Part shown: positions 29,445 to 39,331 of the stretch, one piece after another
Layout: each line of letters starts with the position of its first letter
How positions within the stretch are numbered: the first letter of the stretch is position 1
DNA from: Dehalogenimonas formicexedens
Lineage (GTDB): Bacteria > Chloroflexota > Dehalococcoidia > Dehalococcoidales > Dehalococcoidaceae
NCBI RefSeq assembly: GCF_001953175.1
Contig: NZ_CP018258.1
Coordinates: forward strand, 248,001 to 312,000
DNA length: 64,000 nucleotides
Direction: 5' to 3'
Notes under the pieces: generated by a model
Databases searched by the model: none
Told to the model about the DNA's origin: nothing
What the model saw: only the letters and a program-made list of their open reading frames with translations
Program-made: the position numbers and the translations under genes

Positions 29445-29491
29445 TCTTCGAAAGTAAACGTGAGGGGCGATGCCGGGAGATGTAGTTGGGC

Positions 29492-32400
29492 ATGAAAAAT
29501 CGTCCCTTTCATCTGGCCTCCGGTTTCATCAAAATCCTTTTTGTAACGGTCCTCTGTTTATCATTTTCCATTCCGGCTCATCTCTACGCCGACAGGCAAT
29601 TTACCATAACGCCAAGTGCTGGAACGGGCGGCATAATCACTCCCCCGAACCCCCAGAACGTGCCCGAGGGGAATAGCAAATCGTTCACGATTACGGCGAA
29701 CTTGGGTTACCATATCGCGGAGGTGTTGGTGGATGGCGCCTCGGTCGGGGCTGTGGTTTTATACACTTTTACCAACGTCACCGCCGATCATACCATCGCT
29801 GCCAGTTTCTCCCAAGATACGCCGCAGACCTTCACCATCACGGCGAGCGCGGGCGCCAATGGAGCGATCGATCCGTCCGGGGCGGTGGCCGTCGCTTCCG
29901 GGGGCAGTCAGGTTTTCAATATCACAGCCGGGGCGGGTTTTCATGTAATGGATGTACTGGTCGATGGCGGCTCGATAGGGCCGGCGGTTTCATATACCTT
30001 TACCGATGTAATAGCCGATCACACCATTGAAGCAAGTTTTGCACCCGACGTAACACAGAATTTCACCATAACGGCGAGTGCCGGGGCAAACGGAACCATT
30101 GATCCGCCGGGAGCTATAACTGTCGTTTCTGGAGGGAGCCAAACCTTCAACATTAACCCCGGAACCGGTTTTCATGTCCTGGATGTGCTGGTTGACGATA
30201 TTTCAGCAGGGGCGGTGACGTCCTACACGTTTACAAACCTAACTGCAAATCACACTATCGCGGCCAGTTTTACCGCTGATTCCTACACTCTGACCTACAC
30301 TGCCGGCCCGGGCGGCACGGTCAGCGGCATCACATCCCAGATGGTGAATTACGGTGAGAGCGGGACACCGGTCGCCGCGGTACCCGGCACCGGCTACCAT
30401 TTCGTCACCTGGAGCGATGGTATTCTTACTGACAGCCGCACCGACGCGAACGTTGTCGCTGATATATCGGTGAGCGCCAGTTTCGCTCCGGACGTTGCGC
30501 CGAAACTAACGATCACTCCGACGGCAGGCGCGGGAGGCACCATCAACCCGTCCGCTGCTGTGACAGTGACCCCGGGCGGGAGCCAGGTTTTCGCCATCAC
30601 CGCTGATGCCGGCTATTATATTTTGGATGTACTGGTCGATGGGGTTTCGATAGGGGCGATGGCCTCTTACATTTTTACCAACGTGGTTGCCGACCACACC
30701 ATTACAGCCAGTTTTGCCGTAAACACATACACCTTGACCTATACTGCCGATGCTCATGGAACGATAAACGGAGGGTCACCTCAGGTTGTGAATTTCGGCG
30801 GCAGCGGCACGCCGGTAACTGCGGCGCCGGACATCGGGTACCACTTCATCTGCTGGAGCGACGGGGTCCTGACCGCAAGCCGCACCGACGCGAACGTAAC
30901 CGCTGAAATATCGGTAAGCGCCAGTTTTGCCCCGGATATTCACACCGTGGTATTCGATTCACAAGGGGGCTCCGCGATCAGTTCGCAGTCGGTTTCGTAC
31001 GGCGGATTGGTGGTTTTGCCCACTCCACCCGCACGGGATGCCCATGTCTTCGCCGGCTGGTATAAAGAAGCCGCTTGCACCAGCCAATGGAATTTTAACA
31101 CCGATATCGTTACAGACAATACGACAATTTATGCCAATTGGACGGCTTCGAGCGGTGGCGGCGGAGACGGGGGGGGATTTGGATCTCAGGTGGTGGGAAT
31201 CGGGTTGGCGGGGACCTCACCCTTTATGGACGGAAACGGAAAAGTTATCGCTGCCGGCAGTGTCGAGACCTCGGACGGGAACCTCAAACTTGATATTCCG
31301 GTAGGCGTCTCTATCTGGAATGCCGCAGGCGCAGCACAGCCATTCCTTACGGCAGCAATTCTGTCCAATCCACCCCCAAGCCTACCCCAGGACACCCTTG
31401 TTTCAGCTTATGAGATGGGACCCAACGGAGTTACGTTCACGCCGGCGATATCGATGATATTCCACTACACTGACGATCAGGTGCCGCCCGGTTCCCGTGA
31501 ATCCGACTTAGTCATCGCCTGGTGGAACGGGTCGACTTGGGTCGAGCTGGCAGGAACCGTTGATACCGAGGCAAAAACCGTCACCGCTTCAGTAAGCCAT
31601 TTCACCAGTTTCGCCCTGTTTGCTCCGGAGCCTCCCAAATTGCCCTCGCCGATCCTTGCGATTAACACTCCCAGCGGCGGCACATCAACAGCGCAAGGCA
31701 CGGTGACCGTAACCGCATCCGTCGGTAATCTGAAGTTATTAACCGGCGAGCGCTCCAACGTTCCAGGGGAAGGCCGAATCATTTACTACTTAGACGTAAG
31801 TATCCCGATCATCCAGGGCAAATCCGCGTTGACTGCCCCGGGAACTTATGCCGAGGGAACATCGGAATCATATATCTGGGACAACCTGGCACCGGGCAGC
31901 CACACCCTGGGGATCCAGCTTATCCAGAATGACGGGACCCCGTTTGACCCGCCGGTGGTTTCAACGATTTCGATCAACGTCCTGGCGCCATCCATTTCAA
32001 CTTCTGCGCCAGAGGTCCCAAACCTGTCAATTCCGGGACTCAGCGCAGCCGGGTCTACCGGCAGTTTTAACCCGCTGCTCCTCTCCGCGCTGCTTCTACC
32101 GGCCACAGTTATGATGATATTCATGCTCTCCAGGAGAGCGGGGACGCAGCCTCGAAGGGTAGTTCCGGTTCCCATCGAGCCATCCGCCCCGGTTTTAAGA
32201 CCGAAACCAGTGACGATACCCGAAAAGATTGCCCGACAACCAATTGATGCCCCGGTGAAAATTCAGAACCAGCCCGAGACTTCTAAGCAGGTTGAGAAAC
32301 CTGTTCTCGCTCGGGTAGAAGAACTGGGAGAGTATATTATTCGTTTGCATAATACCGGTTCAGGCGCCCTGTCGGCTATAAGGGATTATATTCAACACAC

Positions 32401-32563
32401 GCCCGAGATCAAGTTGCTGACTTTGAATAACTGCTATTCCGACGTCCAGATGTGCCTAAACGTGAGTAAGGACACCGCGCTGGTGAGTTTTCTTTCCAGG
32501 ATGCTGATTAACTGCTCTGTCCGAAGGGAAGGGCGCATCATCCTGGTGAACGGCAAGAATTAA
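29492..32563 (+). CDS. Large repeat-rich surface protein with membrane anchor and cytoplasmic tail
   Basis: A 1023-aa exported protein. The N-terminus (MKNRPFHLASGFIKILFVTVLCLSF in two parts) is a signal peptide ending near residue 31. Four repeats of about 75 residues (SAGANG...VLVDG...YTFTN...DHTIAASF) alternate with two InlB-like repeats (TYTAGPGGT...WSDG...ISVSASFAPD), then one Listeria-Bacteroides repeat (VFDSQGG...FAGWYK...TIYANWTA). A further beta domain (GEGRIIYYLDV...GSHTLGIQL) resembles the repeats of the lipoprotein at 43299-44204. Near residue 865 one membrane span (LLSALLLPATVMMIFML) precedes a basic 140-residue cytoplasmic tail. Probably an adhesin or cell-surface organiser. Confidence 0.8.
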   Translation: MKNRPFHLASGFIKILFVTVLCLSFSIPAHLYADRQFTITPSAGTGGIITPPNPQNVPEGNSKSFTITANLGYHIAEVLVDGASVGAVVLYTFTNVTADHTIAASFSQDTPQTFTITASAGANGAIDPSGAVAVASGGSQVFNITAGAGFHVMDVLVDGGSIGPAVSYTFTDVIADHTIEASFAPDVTQNFTITASAGANGTIDPPGAITVVSGGSQTFNINPGTGFHVLDVLVDDISAGAVTSYTFTNLTANHTIAASFTADSYTLTYTAGPGGTVSGITSQMVNYGESGTPVAAVPGTGYHFVTWSDGILTDSRTDANVVADISVSASFAPDVAPKLTITPTAGAGGTINPSAAVTVTPGGSQVFAITADAGYYILDVLVDGVSIGAMASYIFTNVVADHTITASFAVNTYTLTYTADAHGTINGGSPQVVNFGGSGTPVTAAPDIGYHFICWSDGVLTASRTDANVTAEISVSASFAPDIHTVVFDSQGGSAISSQSVSYGGLVVLPTPPARDAHVFAGWYKEAACTSQWNFNTDIVTDNTTIYANWTASSGGGGDGGGFGSQVVGIGLAGTSPFMDGNGKVIAAGSVETSDGNLKLDIPVGVSIWNAAGAAQPFLTAAILSNPPPSLPQDTLVSAYEMGPNGVTFTPAISMIFHYTDDQVPPGSRESDLVIAWWNGSTWVELAGTVDTEAKTVTASVSHFTSFALFAPEPPKLPSPILAINTPSGGTSTAQGTVTVTASVGNLKLLTGERSNVPGEGRIIYYLDVSIPIIQGKSALTAPGTYAEGTSESYIWDNLAPGSHTLGIQLIQNDGTPFDPPVVSTISINVLAPSISTSAPEVPNLSIPGLSAAGSTGSFNPLLLSALLLPATVMMIFMLSRRAGTQPRRVVPVPIEPSAPVLRPKPVTIPEKIARQPIDAPVKIQNQPETSKQVEKPVLARVEELGEYIIRLHNTGSGALSAIRDYIQHTPEIKLLTLNNCYSDVQMCLNVSKDTALVSFLSRMLINCSVRREGRIILVNGKN

Positions 32564-33426: not shown

Positions 33427-34113
33427 TCACCTTGCCAAAAGGTTGAGCTTGCCAAGGATGATCAGGCCACCCACCGAAATCAGGGCAATACCCCCCGCGA
33501 CGTAAAACCAGAGGGTGAGCCGGTTCAAACGGCGAAGCAGCGGCACCAGAGTGCCTGCGGCTAATCCGACGGCCAAAAAAGGTATGCCCAGCCCGAGAGA
33601 GTATATCCCAAGTAGCGAGCTTCCCTGCCAGGCGGTACCGCTACTCATCGAAAGAGTGAGGATGCTGGCCAGGATGGGGCTGACGCATGGCGTCCAGGCA
33701 ACCGTGAACACGGCGCCGGTGAGAAACGAGCGCATGTAGCCACGGGGGCCGACCCGGAGATCGAGGCGTTTCTCAAAATTAATCTGAGGGAAACGCGCCG
33801 CCGCCAACATGTATAAGCCCAACAGTACCAACACGGTCCCGGAGATATACCTGACGGCAGGAGTAAACGGATTGACGACGGTACCGGTAAAGGCGGCTAG
33901 AGCGCCCAGGGCGGTAAACACGAGGCTGAAACCGGCCACAAAACTGAGTGAATGAAGGAATAAACCCCTGCGGTTGATCGCTGAACTCCGGGCATCCAGA
34001 AACTCAGGGCCGGCCAGGGAGGCAAGATAGACCGGCACCATCGGCAGCACACAGGGAGAAAGAAACGACAAAATCCCCCCGCCGAGAGCCGCCCAAAAAT
34101 CCACGTTGGCCAT
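33427..34113 (-). CDS. ccdA: CcdA-type thiol-disulfide transmembrane transporter
   Basis: A 228-aa protein with six membrane spans. It has the two redox cysteines of the CcdA/DsbD-beta family: FLSPCVLPMVPVY near the N-terminus and WTPCVSPILASI in the middle. It moves electrons from cytoplasmic thioredoxin across the membrane to an extracytoplasmic thiol protein. Its gene lies 8 bases after the thioredoxin-like lipoprotein gene, so that lipoprotein is the obvious electron acceptor. The pair may maintain reduced thiols outside the cell. Confidence 0.9.
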   Translation of the reverse strand: MANVDFWAALGGGILSFLSPCVLPMVPVYLASLAGPEFLDARSSAINRRGLFLHSLSFVAGFSLVFTALGALAAFTGTVVNPFTPAVRYISGTVLVLLGLYMLAAARFPQINFEKRLDLRVGPRGYMRSFLTGAVFTVAWTPCVSPILASILTLSMSSGTAWQGSSLLGIYSLGLGIPFLAVGLAAGTLVPLLRRLNRLTLWFYVAGGIALISVGGLIILGKLNLLAR

Positions 34114-34121
34114 CGTGCGTT

Positions 34122-34889
34122 TTACGGTTTGGAGCTGAGAGCCGCCTGAAGGACCTCGCCATTGGCAGCTTTAAGATATACCACTGCCTTCAGATTGGCC
34201 GAAGTTCCGTTGTAGGCAGAGCTGATGTTGAACTGCTGGGAGGCTCCTGCCGCCAGGCCGGCGACGGTTATCGGGGCCGGGAGGTCGCGCACGGTGTAGT
34301 GGTGCTCGTCGAATCCCAGGTCTTCGAATAAGACAACGTATAATTTGGCGTTGGAAATGGATGAGGCGCCTGTATTGGTGACGGTGGTGCTCACGCTAAT
34401 GCTACCGGAGGTTTTCATCGTCGATGCTATAGCCACAACAGGCGTTTTGGCCAGTTCCCGATCGATGACTGCTTTCTGCTGGACGTAACTTGCGTCGCTG
34501 CCGCCTATGATTAAGTTGCCGCCGTTAAGATACATCGAGGGGAAGCCCCGGACGTTGTATTCGGCGGCCTTGGCTTCTGTGGATGGGGTGGCGTATTTAT
34601 CACCGGAATGGTATTGCAATACCAGCAGTTTGCCGGGGCCGAGTTCTGAGGCATTCTTTTCGATCGCTCGCGACGCGAACGGGCAGTAGCTTCACCAATC
34701 CCCGGTGAACATTTCCGCCAGCACGACCCGCGTTTGGGCTTGCAGAGACGAAGGTGCGGGACCTGTGACGCCCGGACTTTGGCTCGAAGGCGTCGGATTT
34801 TGAAGGGAGCTGCCGCAACCGGCCAGGAAAGCGACGACGGCCAGAATCCCGGTCACAGCGACGATCCGGTTGTGAAATCCGAGCTTCAT
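34122..34889 (-). CDS. Thioredoxin-like lipoprotein with in-frame TGA (candidate selenoprotein)
   Basis: The whole frame codes for 255 residues if TGA at 34692-34694 (codon 66) is read through. ATG 34889 is preceded by a GGGGGGGA site. The N-terminus has a lipoprotein signal with LAGC at the lipobox. Next comes EMFTGDW-(TGA)-SYCPFAS: the TGA takes the place of the first Cys of the WCxxC thioredoxin active site, giving U-S-Y-C. Downstream, RGFPSMYLNGG matches the thioredoxin cis-Pro region, and about 100 residues of a beta-rich C-terminal domain follow. Codon usage and frame continue unchanged after the TGA. A hairpin follows at SECIS distance. Neighbouring ccdA would supply electrons. The alternative is a nonsense mutation or an assembly error. 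Confidence 0.75.
34665..34691 (-). promoter_or_regulatory. Candidate bacterial SECIS hairpin after the TGA
   Basis: On the - strand, 10 bases after the TGA, CGTTCGC (34681-34675) pairs with GCGAGCG (34671-34665) around a GTC loop: 7 base pairs with one U-G wobble. The loop begins 17 bases after the TGA and its first base is G, matching the general bacterial SECIS rules known to me (short loop with G near its start, about 16-37 bases from UGA). Confidence 0.55.
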
Positions 34890-35133: not shown

Positions 35134-35985
35134 CTAGGCGGGCCGGCAGGAAGCTGAGGTGCTGTCCAGGGCTTCAGCCGGCTGAAGAATCGTTGCCAGC
35201 CATTTTTTCGAATCCGGGCGGTCCGCCTGGCAGGCTTCTTCGGGGAAGACGTTGTAGATCGGGTACTTGAGTTCTTCCCCGCCGCGAAAGTAAAAGACCC
35301 GTTTGAGATGTCTCTTCACCCTTTCGGCGGCTTCGTCCATTTCAGCCGGGGTGGGACGGCGCCATGGATTCACGCCCGCCGGGAAGTACGGCAACAGAAT
35401 GAATGGCATGTTCGGGTCGCGTGAAGCAACATGAACCGCAATGCGCTCGATTTCGCCGGAGTCGATATAATCAGGTATTAATACGGTGTCGACAACCAAC
35501 TTTTTACCCATCGCTATCAACTTGTCGAAGTTTTCCAGTGTCCGCTGATTGGAAACTCCCGTGTAGTCGACATGGAGGCTGTCATCAAGCGCTTTGAGAC
35601 CGATCTCGATTGTATCGGTGTGGGACAGGTCCGGGAGTGCGCAGGCATTGGTTACCAGAGTGACGGTGGCCCCGTACCGCTCGTGGATCATCCGGGTAAA
35701 GGCGGAATACGCCGGATCCAAGCCGGCCTCCTGCCCCTCAATAACTACCGTTTTAAATTCCAGGCCATCCAGGATTCGCTGGACTTCCGGGAGACTCAAG
35801 AAATGGCACGGTGGTTTGGCGGCGCCATCAGATTTAAGCTTGAGCAAGTTCCTGAAATCCAGCATCGGACTGTAGATCCGGTCAACGCAATAGCAGCCCC
35901 TGCATTTGAAATTGCAGCCCCAGAAATGGACGCAAACGTCCTTTTGTTCCGGGGTGTAGGTGATATGAAAAATCCTGGTGTTCAT
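35134..35985 (-). CDS. Radical SAM protein (second of a tandem pair)
   Basis: A 283-aa protein with the radical SAM motif CNFKCRGC near residue 24 (C-x3-C-x2-C). It starts MNTRIFHITYTPEQKD, almost the same as its neighbour at 36029-36865 (MNTRIYHIAYTPELKE), so the pair arose by duplication. GLDPAYSAFTRMIHERYG and RPTPAEMDEAAERVKRHL are shared too. It is the last gene of an rdhAB operon, 43 bases after its paralogue. Substrate unknown; it may be an activase-like or modification enzyme linked to dehalogenase maturation. Confidence 0.8.
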   Translation of the reverse strand: MNTRIFHITYTPEQKDVCVHFWGCNFKCRGCYCVDRIYSPMLDFRNLLKLKSDGAAKPPCHFLSLPEVQRILDGLEFKTVVIEGQEAGLDPAYSAFTRMIHERYGATVTLVTNACALPDLSHTDTIEIGLKALDDSLHVDYTGVSNQRTLENFDKLIAMGKKLVVDTVLIPDYIDSGEIERIAVHVASRDPNMPFILLPYFPAGVNPWRRPTPAEMDEAAERVKRHLKRVFYFRGGEELKYPIYNVFPEEACQADRPDSKKWLATILQPAEALDSTSASCRPA

Positions 35986-36028: not shown

Positions 36029-36865
36029 TCAGGCGATCACTGGATCAGCGTCCGGACTACCCAGAAGGTCTGAGAGGGAGGTCATGTCCCCGGTGTTCTC
36101 CAGTTCTCCGGCACCCTCCGGGAAAGCGCTGAACACTTTGAACTTGAGTTCCTCGTTACCTCGGAAAAAGAAGACCTTATCAAGGTGCTTTTTTGCGGTC
36201 TCGCCGACCCTTTCCATCTCCTCGACCGTCGGTCGCCGCCAGGGGTTGTCCCCGGACTTGAAGTAAGGCAGGATGACAAAGAGCATGTCTTTTTTAACGC
36301 CGGCGATGTACCGGGCAATCCGTTCGATCTCATTGATATCTATCAAGCCGGGGATGAAGACGGACTCGACAAAAGTGTCTTTTCCGGCAGCGACCAGTTT
36401 TTCCAGGTTCTCCAGGACAGTTTTGTTGGAAACGCCCGCGTAAAAAATATTCAAATGGTCAGACACAGCCTTGATGCCAATCTCTACCCGATCGACGTCG
36501 GTCAGATCAGGCAATTGCAGTCCGTTGGACAGCAGCAGATTTCTGGTGTGATAGCGTTCGTGCAACATCCGGGTGATGTTGGCGAACTCCGGGTCGAGTC
36601 CGGCCTCCTGCCCTTCCAGGACTACCGAGGTAAAATCGTATTTGTCGAGAATAGACACCAGTTCGTCCATGGTTAAGAATTTCTCAGGCGCCGGAGCAAG
36701 TCCGGCCGGTTCTTCGATATGCTTGCCCAGGAAATCCGGTAGCATCGGGGAGTAAATGCGGCGTTTGCAATAGCAGCCGCGGCATTCAATATTGCAGCCC
36801 CAGAAGAAGAGACAGATCTCCTTCAGTTCCGGGGTGTAGGCGATGTGATAAATCCTGGTGTTCAT
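36029..36865 (-). CDS. Radical SAM protein (first of a tandem pair)
   Basis: A 278-aa protein with C-x3-C-x2-C in WGCNIECRGCYC near residue 24, and GQEAGLDPEFANITRM further on. Its start codon overlaps the stop of the 58-aa membrane protein (ATGA), so it is translationally coupled to the rdhAB operon upstream. It aligns along its whole length with the following gene product. Short length and lack of a SPASM domain resemble small activating enzymes. The target is not known. Confidence 0.8.
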   Translation of the reverse strand: MNTRIYHIAYTPELKEICLFFWGCNIECRGCYCKRRIYSPMLPDFLGKHIEEPAGLAPAPEKFLTMDELVSILDKYDFTSVVLEGQEAGLDPEFANITRMLHERYHTRNLLLSNGLQLPDLTDVDRVEIGIKAVSDHLNIFYAGVSNKTVLENLEKLVAAGKDTFVESVFIPGLIDINEIERIARYIAGVKKDMLFVILPYFKSGDNPWRRPTVEEMERVGETAKKHLDKVFFFRGNEELKFKVFSAFPEGAGELENTGDMTSLSDLLGSPDADPVIA

Positions 36866-37045: not shown

Positions 37046-37438
37046 TCAACTCTTAAAAAAGACCGGGGGCACGGCAGCCGGGCCGGTGTCGTCTTTATTC
37101 TCAGAGTTGACGGTTGAGTTTTCGCCCTCTTTGTAAACGCCCAATTTTTTGAATTCCTCGATGATCAGCTCAGCGTTTTCGGTGAATGTCACCAATGGTT
37201 CTACCTTGAACTCGGAGAGGCAGTACATCGGGAAATCGATCAGGTTTTTAATGAGTTCTTCGTGGGATGACACGTTGAAGATCAAGAAACCGCCGCCGGC
37301 AGCGAAGCTGTAGGCGCTTTCCAGGATGCCTTCGGATTGCTTCTGCCTGATCCATTCCTCGCTTTTGCGCAGGAACATGACCTTGGTATTGTAGTCCTCG
37401 GGATATACTATCTGTTTGCCGGTGGCGTAGTATTTCAT
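37046..37438 (-). CDS. Muconolactone isomerase-like small protein
   Basis: A 130-aa soluble protein. Residues about 20-90 follow the pattern of muconolactone isomerase-like dimeric alpha-beta barrels (MFLRKSEEWIRQKQSEGILE, then GGGFLIFNVSSHEELIKNL, then a MYCLSEFKVEPL ending). The remaining 35 residues are a polar tail. It follows rdhB by 60 bases with a hairpin in between. Proteins of this fold bind small aromatic or redox cofactors; an enzymatic role in dehalogenation is not shown. Confidence 0.6.
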   Translation of the reverse strand: MKYYATGKQIVYPEDYNTKVMFLRKSEEWIRQKQSEGILESAYSFAAGGGFLIFNVSSHEELIKNLIDFPMYCLSEFKVEPLVTFTENAELIIEEFKKLGVYKEGENSTVNSENKDDTGPAAVPPVFFKS

Positions 37439-37834: not shown

Positions 37835-39331
37835 TTATTTGGCGTATCCACCCTTGGCGGCGCCGATGGTGCTGTCCTGTCCGTACACCGGGAGCGACAT
37901 CTTCCACCAGTCGTCTGGTTCGTAGATACCGTAGCTCATCTTCTCCTCCATGGTGGCGAAGAACGAGTTGAAGATGCTCGTCTGAGATACGGTTGTCCTT
38001 ACCAGGGCGTGGATCATGGCAGCCTTGTCGTTGCCCATCGGGCACTGGATCCAGCACATGCGGCCACCCTTCTGCGGCCAGCAGTCGCCGCCACAGGCTT
38101 CGCGGTTAGTGGCGCAGGCTACCCAGTTGAGCCAGAAAGCTTTGGGGCCGGGATTGTGGAAGGTCGACGTCAGACCGTCGGTGGTCGGAATATCGTAGGT
38201 GGGCTCTTTGTCAAGGGAGATAGCTCTGCCCATGCAATGCTTGGCGCAGGTGGCGCAGCCAGCGCAGAACTTCCAGATGCCCGCGTCCATGGGTTTGGTG
38301 GGCGACATGGCGAAGTCAGTCAGCATGGTAAAGTCGTTGTGATGCGGACCGTTCTCCGATGTCAGGGTGTAGTTATTCTGCCGCGAGGCCTCGGCATAAC
38401 CGGTTAACGGGCCCATGATGCCGGTATGAAGCGGCATGGACTGATCGCCGGTGTTACCAAAGATGTGGTAACCGAGTACGTTCAGGAAACCAGCCATGCG
38501 GTTCCGCAGAAAAGAAGCTTTATCGACGATGGAGTTGTTGCTGTTGGATATCGCCGACGGGCATTTCCGCGCCTCCGGAGAGGCGGCTTCGGAGAAGGCG
38601 ACGCCGTAGATTTGAACGTTTGTCGGGATAACCCACTTTTCCTTCGAGACACCGGTGGGATCCGCGGCAATGTAGGGGGCGTCGACGTTCTCAAAAGTGT
38701 ACATCGAGTTGGTACCGGTGGTGGAATAAAGATCAAACAACTGGTTCCGCCAGTGGTCTTCGATTTCGGTGACACCGAGCCAGGTGTAGCCGTAGTACCT
38801 CATGGCCGAATAGAACATGTTGTAGGCTTCCTCCGGCGTTCCGGTCCATTTTGGCAAGCCCAGGCTGGTGTTGGTGCTGCCGTAGCTTTTGCTGTCGGAG
38901 TACGTGCCGGTGAACGTCCAGGTGGGATAGGTGGCCCGGTTGTTTTTACCGTTGTTCAGCGCCTGGAATTTCTGTGAATAACCCGGGTCCTGGTTGGCGA
39001 GCCGGGCGGCTGCCATGGCGTTACCGGCAGCTTTGCGGTCGTCTACGCCATTGTTGTATGAGGGGTACTGCTGGAGCACACCGGTACTCTGCGACTGAGT
39101 CCGGCCGTTGTAGCGTTTCATCACGCCCCAATCGATTTCGATGGTCGGATTGAAAAGGTCGCGCTCCTTCACGTACCAGTCCCGCTTGAAGCCGGGCCCG
39201 GTCGCCGCCAACTCATCCAGATCGTGGAACTGGGGGACGGTAAGGGCGGCGGCTGCCCCGATGCCGGCGCCGGCTAAGCCGAGAGCCTTCATGAAGTCCC
39301 GGCGCGTAACCGTGCTGTGAAATACTGACAT
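37835..39331 (-). CDS. rdhA: Reductive dehalogenase catalytic subunit RdhA
   Basis: A 498-aa protein. The Tat leader TRRDFMKALGLAGAG lies at residues 9-23, so the folded enzyme is exported. Near the C-terminus are two iron-sulfur cluster motifs: CAGCATCAKHC (C-x2-C-x2-C-x3-C) and an unusual long one, ACGGDCWPQKGGRMCWIQCP. RdhA enzymes hold a corrinoid plus two [4Fe-4S] clusters and remove halogen from organohalides as terminal electron acceptors. The WTGTPEE motif shared with the other four RdhA proteins is present. The substrate cannot be told from sequence. It heads an operon with rdhB, an isomerase-like gene, a small membrane protein and two radical SAM genes. Confidence 0.9.
   Translation of the reverse strand: MSVFHSTVTRRDFMKALGLAGAGIGAAAALTVPQFHDLDELAATGPGFKRDWYVKERDLFNPTIEIDWGVMKRYNGRTQSQSTGVLQQYPSYNNGVDDRKAAGNAMAAARLANQDPGYSQKFQALNNGKNNRATYPTWTFTGTYSDSKSYGSTNTSLGLPKWTGTPEEAYNMFYSAMRYYGYTWLGVTEIEDHWRNQLFDLYSTTGTNSMYTFENVDAPYIAADPTGVSKEKWVIPTNVQIYGVAFSEAASPEARKCPSAISNSNNSIVDKASFLRNRMAGFLNVLGYHIFGNTGDQSMPLHTGIMGPLTGYAEASRQNNYTLTSENGPHHNDFTMLTDFAMSPTKPMDAGIWKFCAGCATCAKHCMGRAISLDKEPTYDIPTTDGLTSTFHNPGPKAFWLNWVACATNREACGGDCWPQKGGRMCWIQCPMGNDKAAMIHALVRTTVSQTSIFNSFFATMEEKMSYGIYEPDDWWKMSLPVYGQDSTIGAAKGGYAK

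Follow-up and report, generated by a model that had tools for sequence, protein, structure and literature searches.

A probable selenocysteine-containing thioredoxin-like lipoprotein encoded next to ccdA in Dehalogenimonas formicexedens

The lipoprotein gene and its surroundings

We analyzed a stretch of 64,000 nucleotides (hereafter the window) from Dehalogenimonas formicexedens, a genome of Dehalogenimonas type that consists of a single contig of 2,092,789 bp. The window carries, on its minus strand, a gene for a thioredoxin-like lipoprotein whose frame is crossed by one TGA, followed by ccdA. The features of this locus are:

33427-34113, minus strand: ccdA (DsbD_TM family), encoding a thiol-electron transporter (PF02683, E 9e-23), directly downstream of the lipoprotein gene and on the same strand
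34122-34889, minus strand: gene of a thioredoxin-like lipoprotein predicted to contain selenocysteine, 255 codons plus stop, supported by translation with TGA read as U, by homologues with a single TGA at the same site, and by dN/dS
34134-34436, minus strand: predicted C-terminal beta-sandwich (Ig-like), residues 152-252, from AlphaFold strands of mostly high pLDDT and the Foldseek match to HBP35
34539-34541, minus strand: Pro117 of GFP, the presumed cis-proline, invariant in the homologue alignment (A2), with its position in the fold taken from the AlphaFold model
34665-34681, minus strand: SECIS-like hairpin of 7 bp whose loop, GUC, lies 17 nt from the TGA, identified by folding and by synonymous-site identity in four species
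34683-34685, minus strand: codon 69 (TGC), resolving cysteine of the UxxC motif, invariant in the same alignment
34692-34694, minus strand: TGA within the frame at codon 66, the predicted selenocysteine and first redox position of W-U-S-Y-C, from translation and alignment
34815-34817, minus strand: Cys25, the cysteine of the lipobox LAGC and predicted site of lipid attachment, from the sequence

The lipoprotein frame (34889-34122, minus strand) contains exactly one TGA, at codon 66, in the context ...EMFTGDW-U-SYCPF.... With this codon read as U, the translation starts MKLGFHNRIVAVTGILAVVAFLAGC...TRVVLAEMFTGDWUSYCPFASRAIEK.... A preliminary description of this DNA had reported a continuous 255-codon frame with a lone TGA at the first redox position of the thioredoxin motif, a lipobox before it, and a cis-proline region and an intact C-terminal domain after it. 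Translation recovers this frame, the lipobox and the GFP motif are both found in the sequence, and the C-terminal domain appears as a beta-sandwich in the AlphaFold model. The coordinates that had been given for the gene, the TGA and the hairpin are all correct. In the four members of the genus that carry the gene, this genome included, a cysteine occupies the position of Cys25. The window holds eight long frames with a single TGA, and the combination of a hairpin and a UxxC motif is found only in the lipoprotein frame.

Upstream of the lipoprotein gene and on the same strand lie two adjoining genes for radical SAM proteins (35134-35985 and 36029-36865, minus strand). A few genes upstream there is also a reductive dehalogenase with a twin-arginine signal (37835-39331, minus strand; TIGR02486, 201 bits), near which a small protein (37046-37438, minus strand) has weak similarity to muconolactone delta-isomerase (23 bits). 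On the plus strand, a frame of 1025 residues (29486-32563) has many similar repeats, and its C-terminal third contains a hydrophobic stretch; it probably encodes a surface protein.

Conservation of the TGA and the means to decode it

The genes selA, selB, selC and selD, which the preliminary description had proposed to look for and of which it regarded selB and selC as indispensable, are all present in this genome, clustered within 5 kb (2,056-2,061 kb). The tRNA-Sec (selC) scores 70 bits and is likewise called as tRNA-SeC by ARAGORN, and the matches to selD, selA and selB all exceed the curated cut-offs. The genome's own SelD carries an in-frame TGA at its usual selenocysteine site. Within the window, Rfam and ARAGORN gave no match. 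The selCDAB operon of Dehalogenimonas has already been published (PMC13390414), and we found selA in all eight genomes of the genus that were examined, as well as in the two genomes outside the genus that have homologues with the TGA.

The lipoprotein gene occurs in four of the eight genomes of the genus, with 57-70% identity, and each copy has exactly one TGA, at the same codon. Outside the genus, the aligned site has a TGA in both copies found in G303, a Chloroflexi MAG, and in one copy from Anaerolineaceae UBA5311 (G548). Seven sequences including the query thus have the TGA (six relatives), and two homologues have TGT (Cys) instead, which makes a classical Sec/Cys pair. These two, from KSB1 and Bacteroidales (motifs WCGYC and WCSVC, respectively), were clear matches in a scan with the seven-sequence alignment; an initial protein-only scan of the genome contigs had found no homologue. 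A search centered on the class of G303, which comprised one genome, gave no further homologue. Four short or partial matches (L033-L036, E 2e-5 to 1e-3) had no TGA. Two others were discarded as chance matches: one (L020, in G126; E 9e-4) has seven internal stops and one from Myxococcaceae (L057) lacks the thioredoxin motif. The alignment of homologues suggested in the preliminary description hence places the TGA in three congeners and in distant Chloroflexota, and Cys in other phyla. Neither of the observations that it had set against its own reading, loss of selB/selC or reads with TGT/TGC at the codon, holds here.

The two homologues of G303 form a tandem pair (L038, 7718-11091, minus strand), where one is fused to several invasin/Big_1 Ig-like repeats and the other has GUSGC instead of WUGYC. 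In G548, a second frame with a single TGA and the motif VEUWHC lies directly upstream of the homologue (L039, 5356-6180, minus strand). It had no match in Pfam or NCBIfam and is a candidate further selenoprotein.

Within the genus, dN/dS from 15 codons before the TGA through the stop ranges from 0.13 to 0.19, with dS mostly above 1. The sequence beyond the TGA therefore experiences strong selection at the protein level.

The hairpin CGUUCGC-GUC-GCGAGCG (34681-34665, minus strand) begins 10 nt 3' of the TGA and has a folding energy of -8.3 kcal/mol. The published bSECIS model asks for a loop of 3-9 nt, a stem of 4-16 bp, a G within loop positions 1-2, a spacing of 16-37 nt, and an energy of at most -7.5 kcal/mol (PMC13188914). 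The hairpin, whose loop starts with G, fits this model throughout, in agreement with the earlier statement that a 7-bp hairpin with a G-first loop lies at a distance acceptable for SECIS elements. Taken alone, it is weak evidence, since strict-rule hairpins occur 3' of 79 of the 2202 TGAs in the window (3.6%). The strict rule is also neither necessary nor highly specific, since the G548 homologue and this genome's SelD do not follow it. The conservation of the hairpin adds to this picture: its six codons are identical in the four Dehalogenimonas species, whereas this is true of 26 of 98 codons elsewhere that are conserved and degenerate (Fisher p = 6e-4). One of the G303 features, a hairpin at the same place with two base pairs altered on both sides, suggests covariation, but this comprises three distinct sequences only and was matched by 56 of 500 shuffles.

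These data bear on three other readings of the TGA. The codon is a standard stop that would leave a remnant of 65 residues, and the gene might thus be a pseudogene in which a nonsense mutation or a sequencing error fell on the active-site codon. Yet the TGA is shared with three congeners and with homologues in other families, the low dN/dS spans the region after it, and synonymous sites within the hairpin are conserved. The conservation of the TGA and of the downstream region already refutes this reading, whose probability we consider negligible; the same observations uphold the earlier view that a chance nonsense mutation at the redox residue is unlikely. A suppressor or near-cognate tRNA that inserts Trp or Cys at the UGA, for which no evidence emerged, is very improbable, given a standard tRNA-Sec with SelA, SelB and SelD in the genome and, for Trp, homologues that have Cys at the site. 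The locus might also encode a short lipoprotein and, as a second protein, a C-terminal part with its own start, e.g., the TTG at 34619, where a mechanical ORF caller yields a frame of 165 aa. We give this equally little weight, as TRVVLAEMFTGDW-U-xYCPFASRAIEK forms a continuous thioredoxin motif across the TGA that is near-invariant in the genus.

The gene, its conservation, the selenocysteine machinery and the neighborhood are supported by the sequence and by comparison between genomes. As the machinery is complete and six related genes have a TGA at the same active-site position, the lipoprotein gene very probably encodes a selenoprotein in which the TGA is read as selenocysteine, the insertion of which we infer from these data.

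Association with ccdA and proposed function

This genome has no DsbD_TM match other than the ccdA gene. It forms a pair with the lipoprotein gene in this genome (G000) and in G200 only. In the two other congeners with the selenoprotein gene (G083 and G189), ccdA lies elsewhere and is followed by a gene for a TlpA/ResA-like Cys lipoprotein; this arrangement is also found in three congeners that lack the selenoprotein gene (G146, G124 and G135). The TlpA orthologue is absent from G000 and G200, where only weak partial matches were found, and these are the only genomes that have ccdA without TlpA. One genome, G068, had no match to ccdA, to the TlpA protein or to the selenoprotein. The link to CcdA is therefore lineage-specific, as ccdA is not adjacent to the gene in G083 and G189. 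The proposal of the preliminary description that the adjacent CcdA delivers electrons to the lipoprotein is thus in line with the linkage in G000 and G200 and does not extend to G083 and G189. From gene content, the selenoprotein appears to replace the TlpA/ResA-like Cys protein as the partner of CcdA in G000 and G200.

Radical SAM proteins recur in this context. G083 has a homologue of the first one (37% identity to 35134-35985) that is divergent beside ccdA, and similar proteins are found beside ccdA in G189, G146 and G135; no radical SAM pair was seen in the neighborhood of G200 that we examined. Both arrangements thus link radical SAM proteins with ccdA and a lipoprotein of thioredoxin type.

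These observations are best explained by the following mechanism. The UGA at codon 66 would be recoded by SelB and tRNA-Sec, directed by the hairpin immediately downstream. Judging from known pathways, the product would be exported and lipid-anchored, with the active site Sec66-Ser-Tyr-Cys69. CcdA would pass electrons from cytoplasmic thioredoxin over the membrane to reduce the Se-S bond. The selenolate of Sec66 might then attack disulfides or other oxidized groups of proteins outside the membrane. The substrates might include exported enzymes of organohalide respiration. We moderately favor such a CcdA-driven extracytoplasmic reductase, for which electron flow and substrates are deduced from the gene context.

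A selenoprotein with another electron partner, i.e., an enzyme of peroxide or organohalide stress, or a thiol oxidase, is a somewhat less probable but serious alternative. Two of the four members of the genus that carry the gene have no adjacent ccdA, and inspection by eye of the large ORFs flanking the G303 homologues revealed no ccdA-like frame. Moreover, HBP35, the closest structural match (see below), complements an Escherichia coli dsbA mutant, i.e., has an oxidizing role (PMC2907840). Against this stands the position of the gene next to the sole ccdA, together with the missing TlpA partner, in both species that have the pair.

In the papers on Dehalogenimonas genomes that we consulted, formate dehydrogenase and SelD are the only proteins reported to contain selenocysteine (PMC4918011, PMC7729418, PMC13390414). 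If our reading is correct, it adds an exported redox selenoprotein to Dehalogenimonas, a gene that ordinary annotation would end at the TGA. The genus would also offer a natural comparison of Sec and Cys, as the same ccdA has a seleno-thioredoxin beside it in one set of species and a TlpA protein with Cys in the other. Selenium supply could then influence the extracytoplasmic redox balance of bacteria used in the clean-up of chlorinated solvents.

Relation to known thioredoxin-like proteins

The AlphaFold model, which has a mean pLDDT of 76.9 and is mostly unreliable for residues 1-48, predicts a thioredoxin-like domain followed by a C-terminal beta-sandwich. Its best match in the PDB is HBP35 of Porphyromonas gingivalis (5y1a; Foldseek E 1.3e-10, TMq 0.62, 247 columns), and an Omp28 domain is also among the matches. 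Matches to a potassium channel and to glycosidases, with TM-scores of 0.2-0.3, were set aside as resemblance of the beta-sandwich only.

Searches for protein families gave sub-threshold matches only, to Omp28 lipoprotein, DUF1223, thioredoxin and NF045500. The Omp28 lipoprotein models stay under their cut-offs (NF033782, 42.7 vs 150 bits; PF11551, 29.6 vs 34.9 bits), as does thioredoxin PF00085 (15.9 vs 23.5 bits). NF045500 matches the thioredoxin part (profile positions 39-133 of 377) with 30 bits vs a cut-off of 200 (E 3e-7), and the relatives score 18-37 bits. This model is GOS_C, a selenoprotein with a thioredoxin fold and a UxxC motif (first described in PMC2398784; listed in PMC13188914). 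By sequence, the predicted selenoprotein is of this thioredoxin-fold UxxC kind, related to GOS_C but far below the family cut-off. Our literature search returned no paper combining Omp28 and selenoprotein, and the two papers combining CcdA, selenoprotein and thioredoxin appear to concern unrelated topics.

It is an evenly balanced proposition that these genes form a Chloroflexota-centered subfamily of lipid-anchored seleno-thioredoxins, outside the catalogue at the family cut-off, which replaced the Cys TlpA-type acceptor of CcdA in some organohalide-respiring Dehalogenimonas and would place the greater reactivity of selenium on the outer side of the membrane, where dehalogenases work.

Four known systems are close to this lipoprotein. 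It shares with GOS_C the thioredoxin-like fold, the predicted UxxC selenocysteine motif and the relationship to Omp28, whereas the GOS_C model has 377 positions and the present protein has 255 aa and matches the profile only in part. Bacterial selenothioredoxins (Trx, PF00085) also combine a thioredoxin fold with UxxC at the active site, but the lipoprotein is predicted to be exported and lipid-anchored, with an extra beta-sandwich domain. The TlpA/ResA-like lipoproteins resemble it in having a thioredoxin active site, in being lipoproteins, and in lying beside ccdA in five congeners; they belong to another family, have Cys only (in CPPC, CPGC or CPEC motifs), and are encoded downstream of ccdA. 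Finally, HBP35 has the arrangement of a thioredoxin domain and a beta-sandwich that is predicted for the lipoprotein, and its active-site pair Cys48/Cys51, which gives insulin-reducing (thioredoxin) activity (PMC2907840), has the same xxYC spacing as Sec66/Cys69. It differs in having Cys instead of Sec, in its identity of 16% to the lipoprotein, in reaching the cell surface through a secretion system of Bacteroidetes, and in the binding of hemin by its own C-terminal part.
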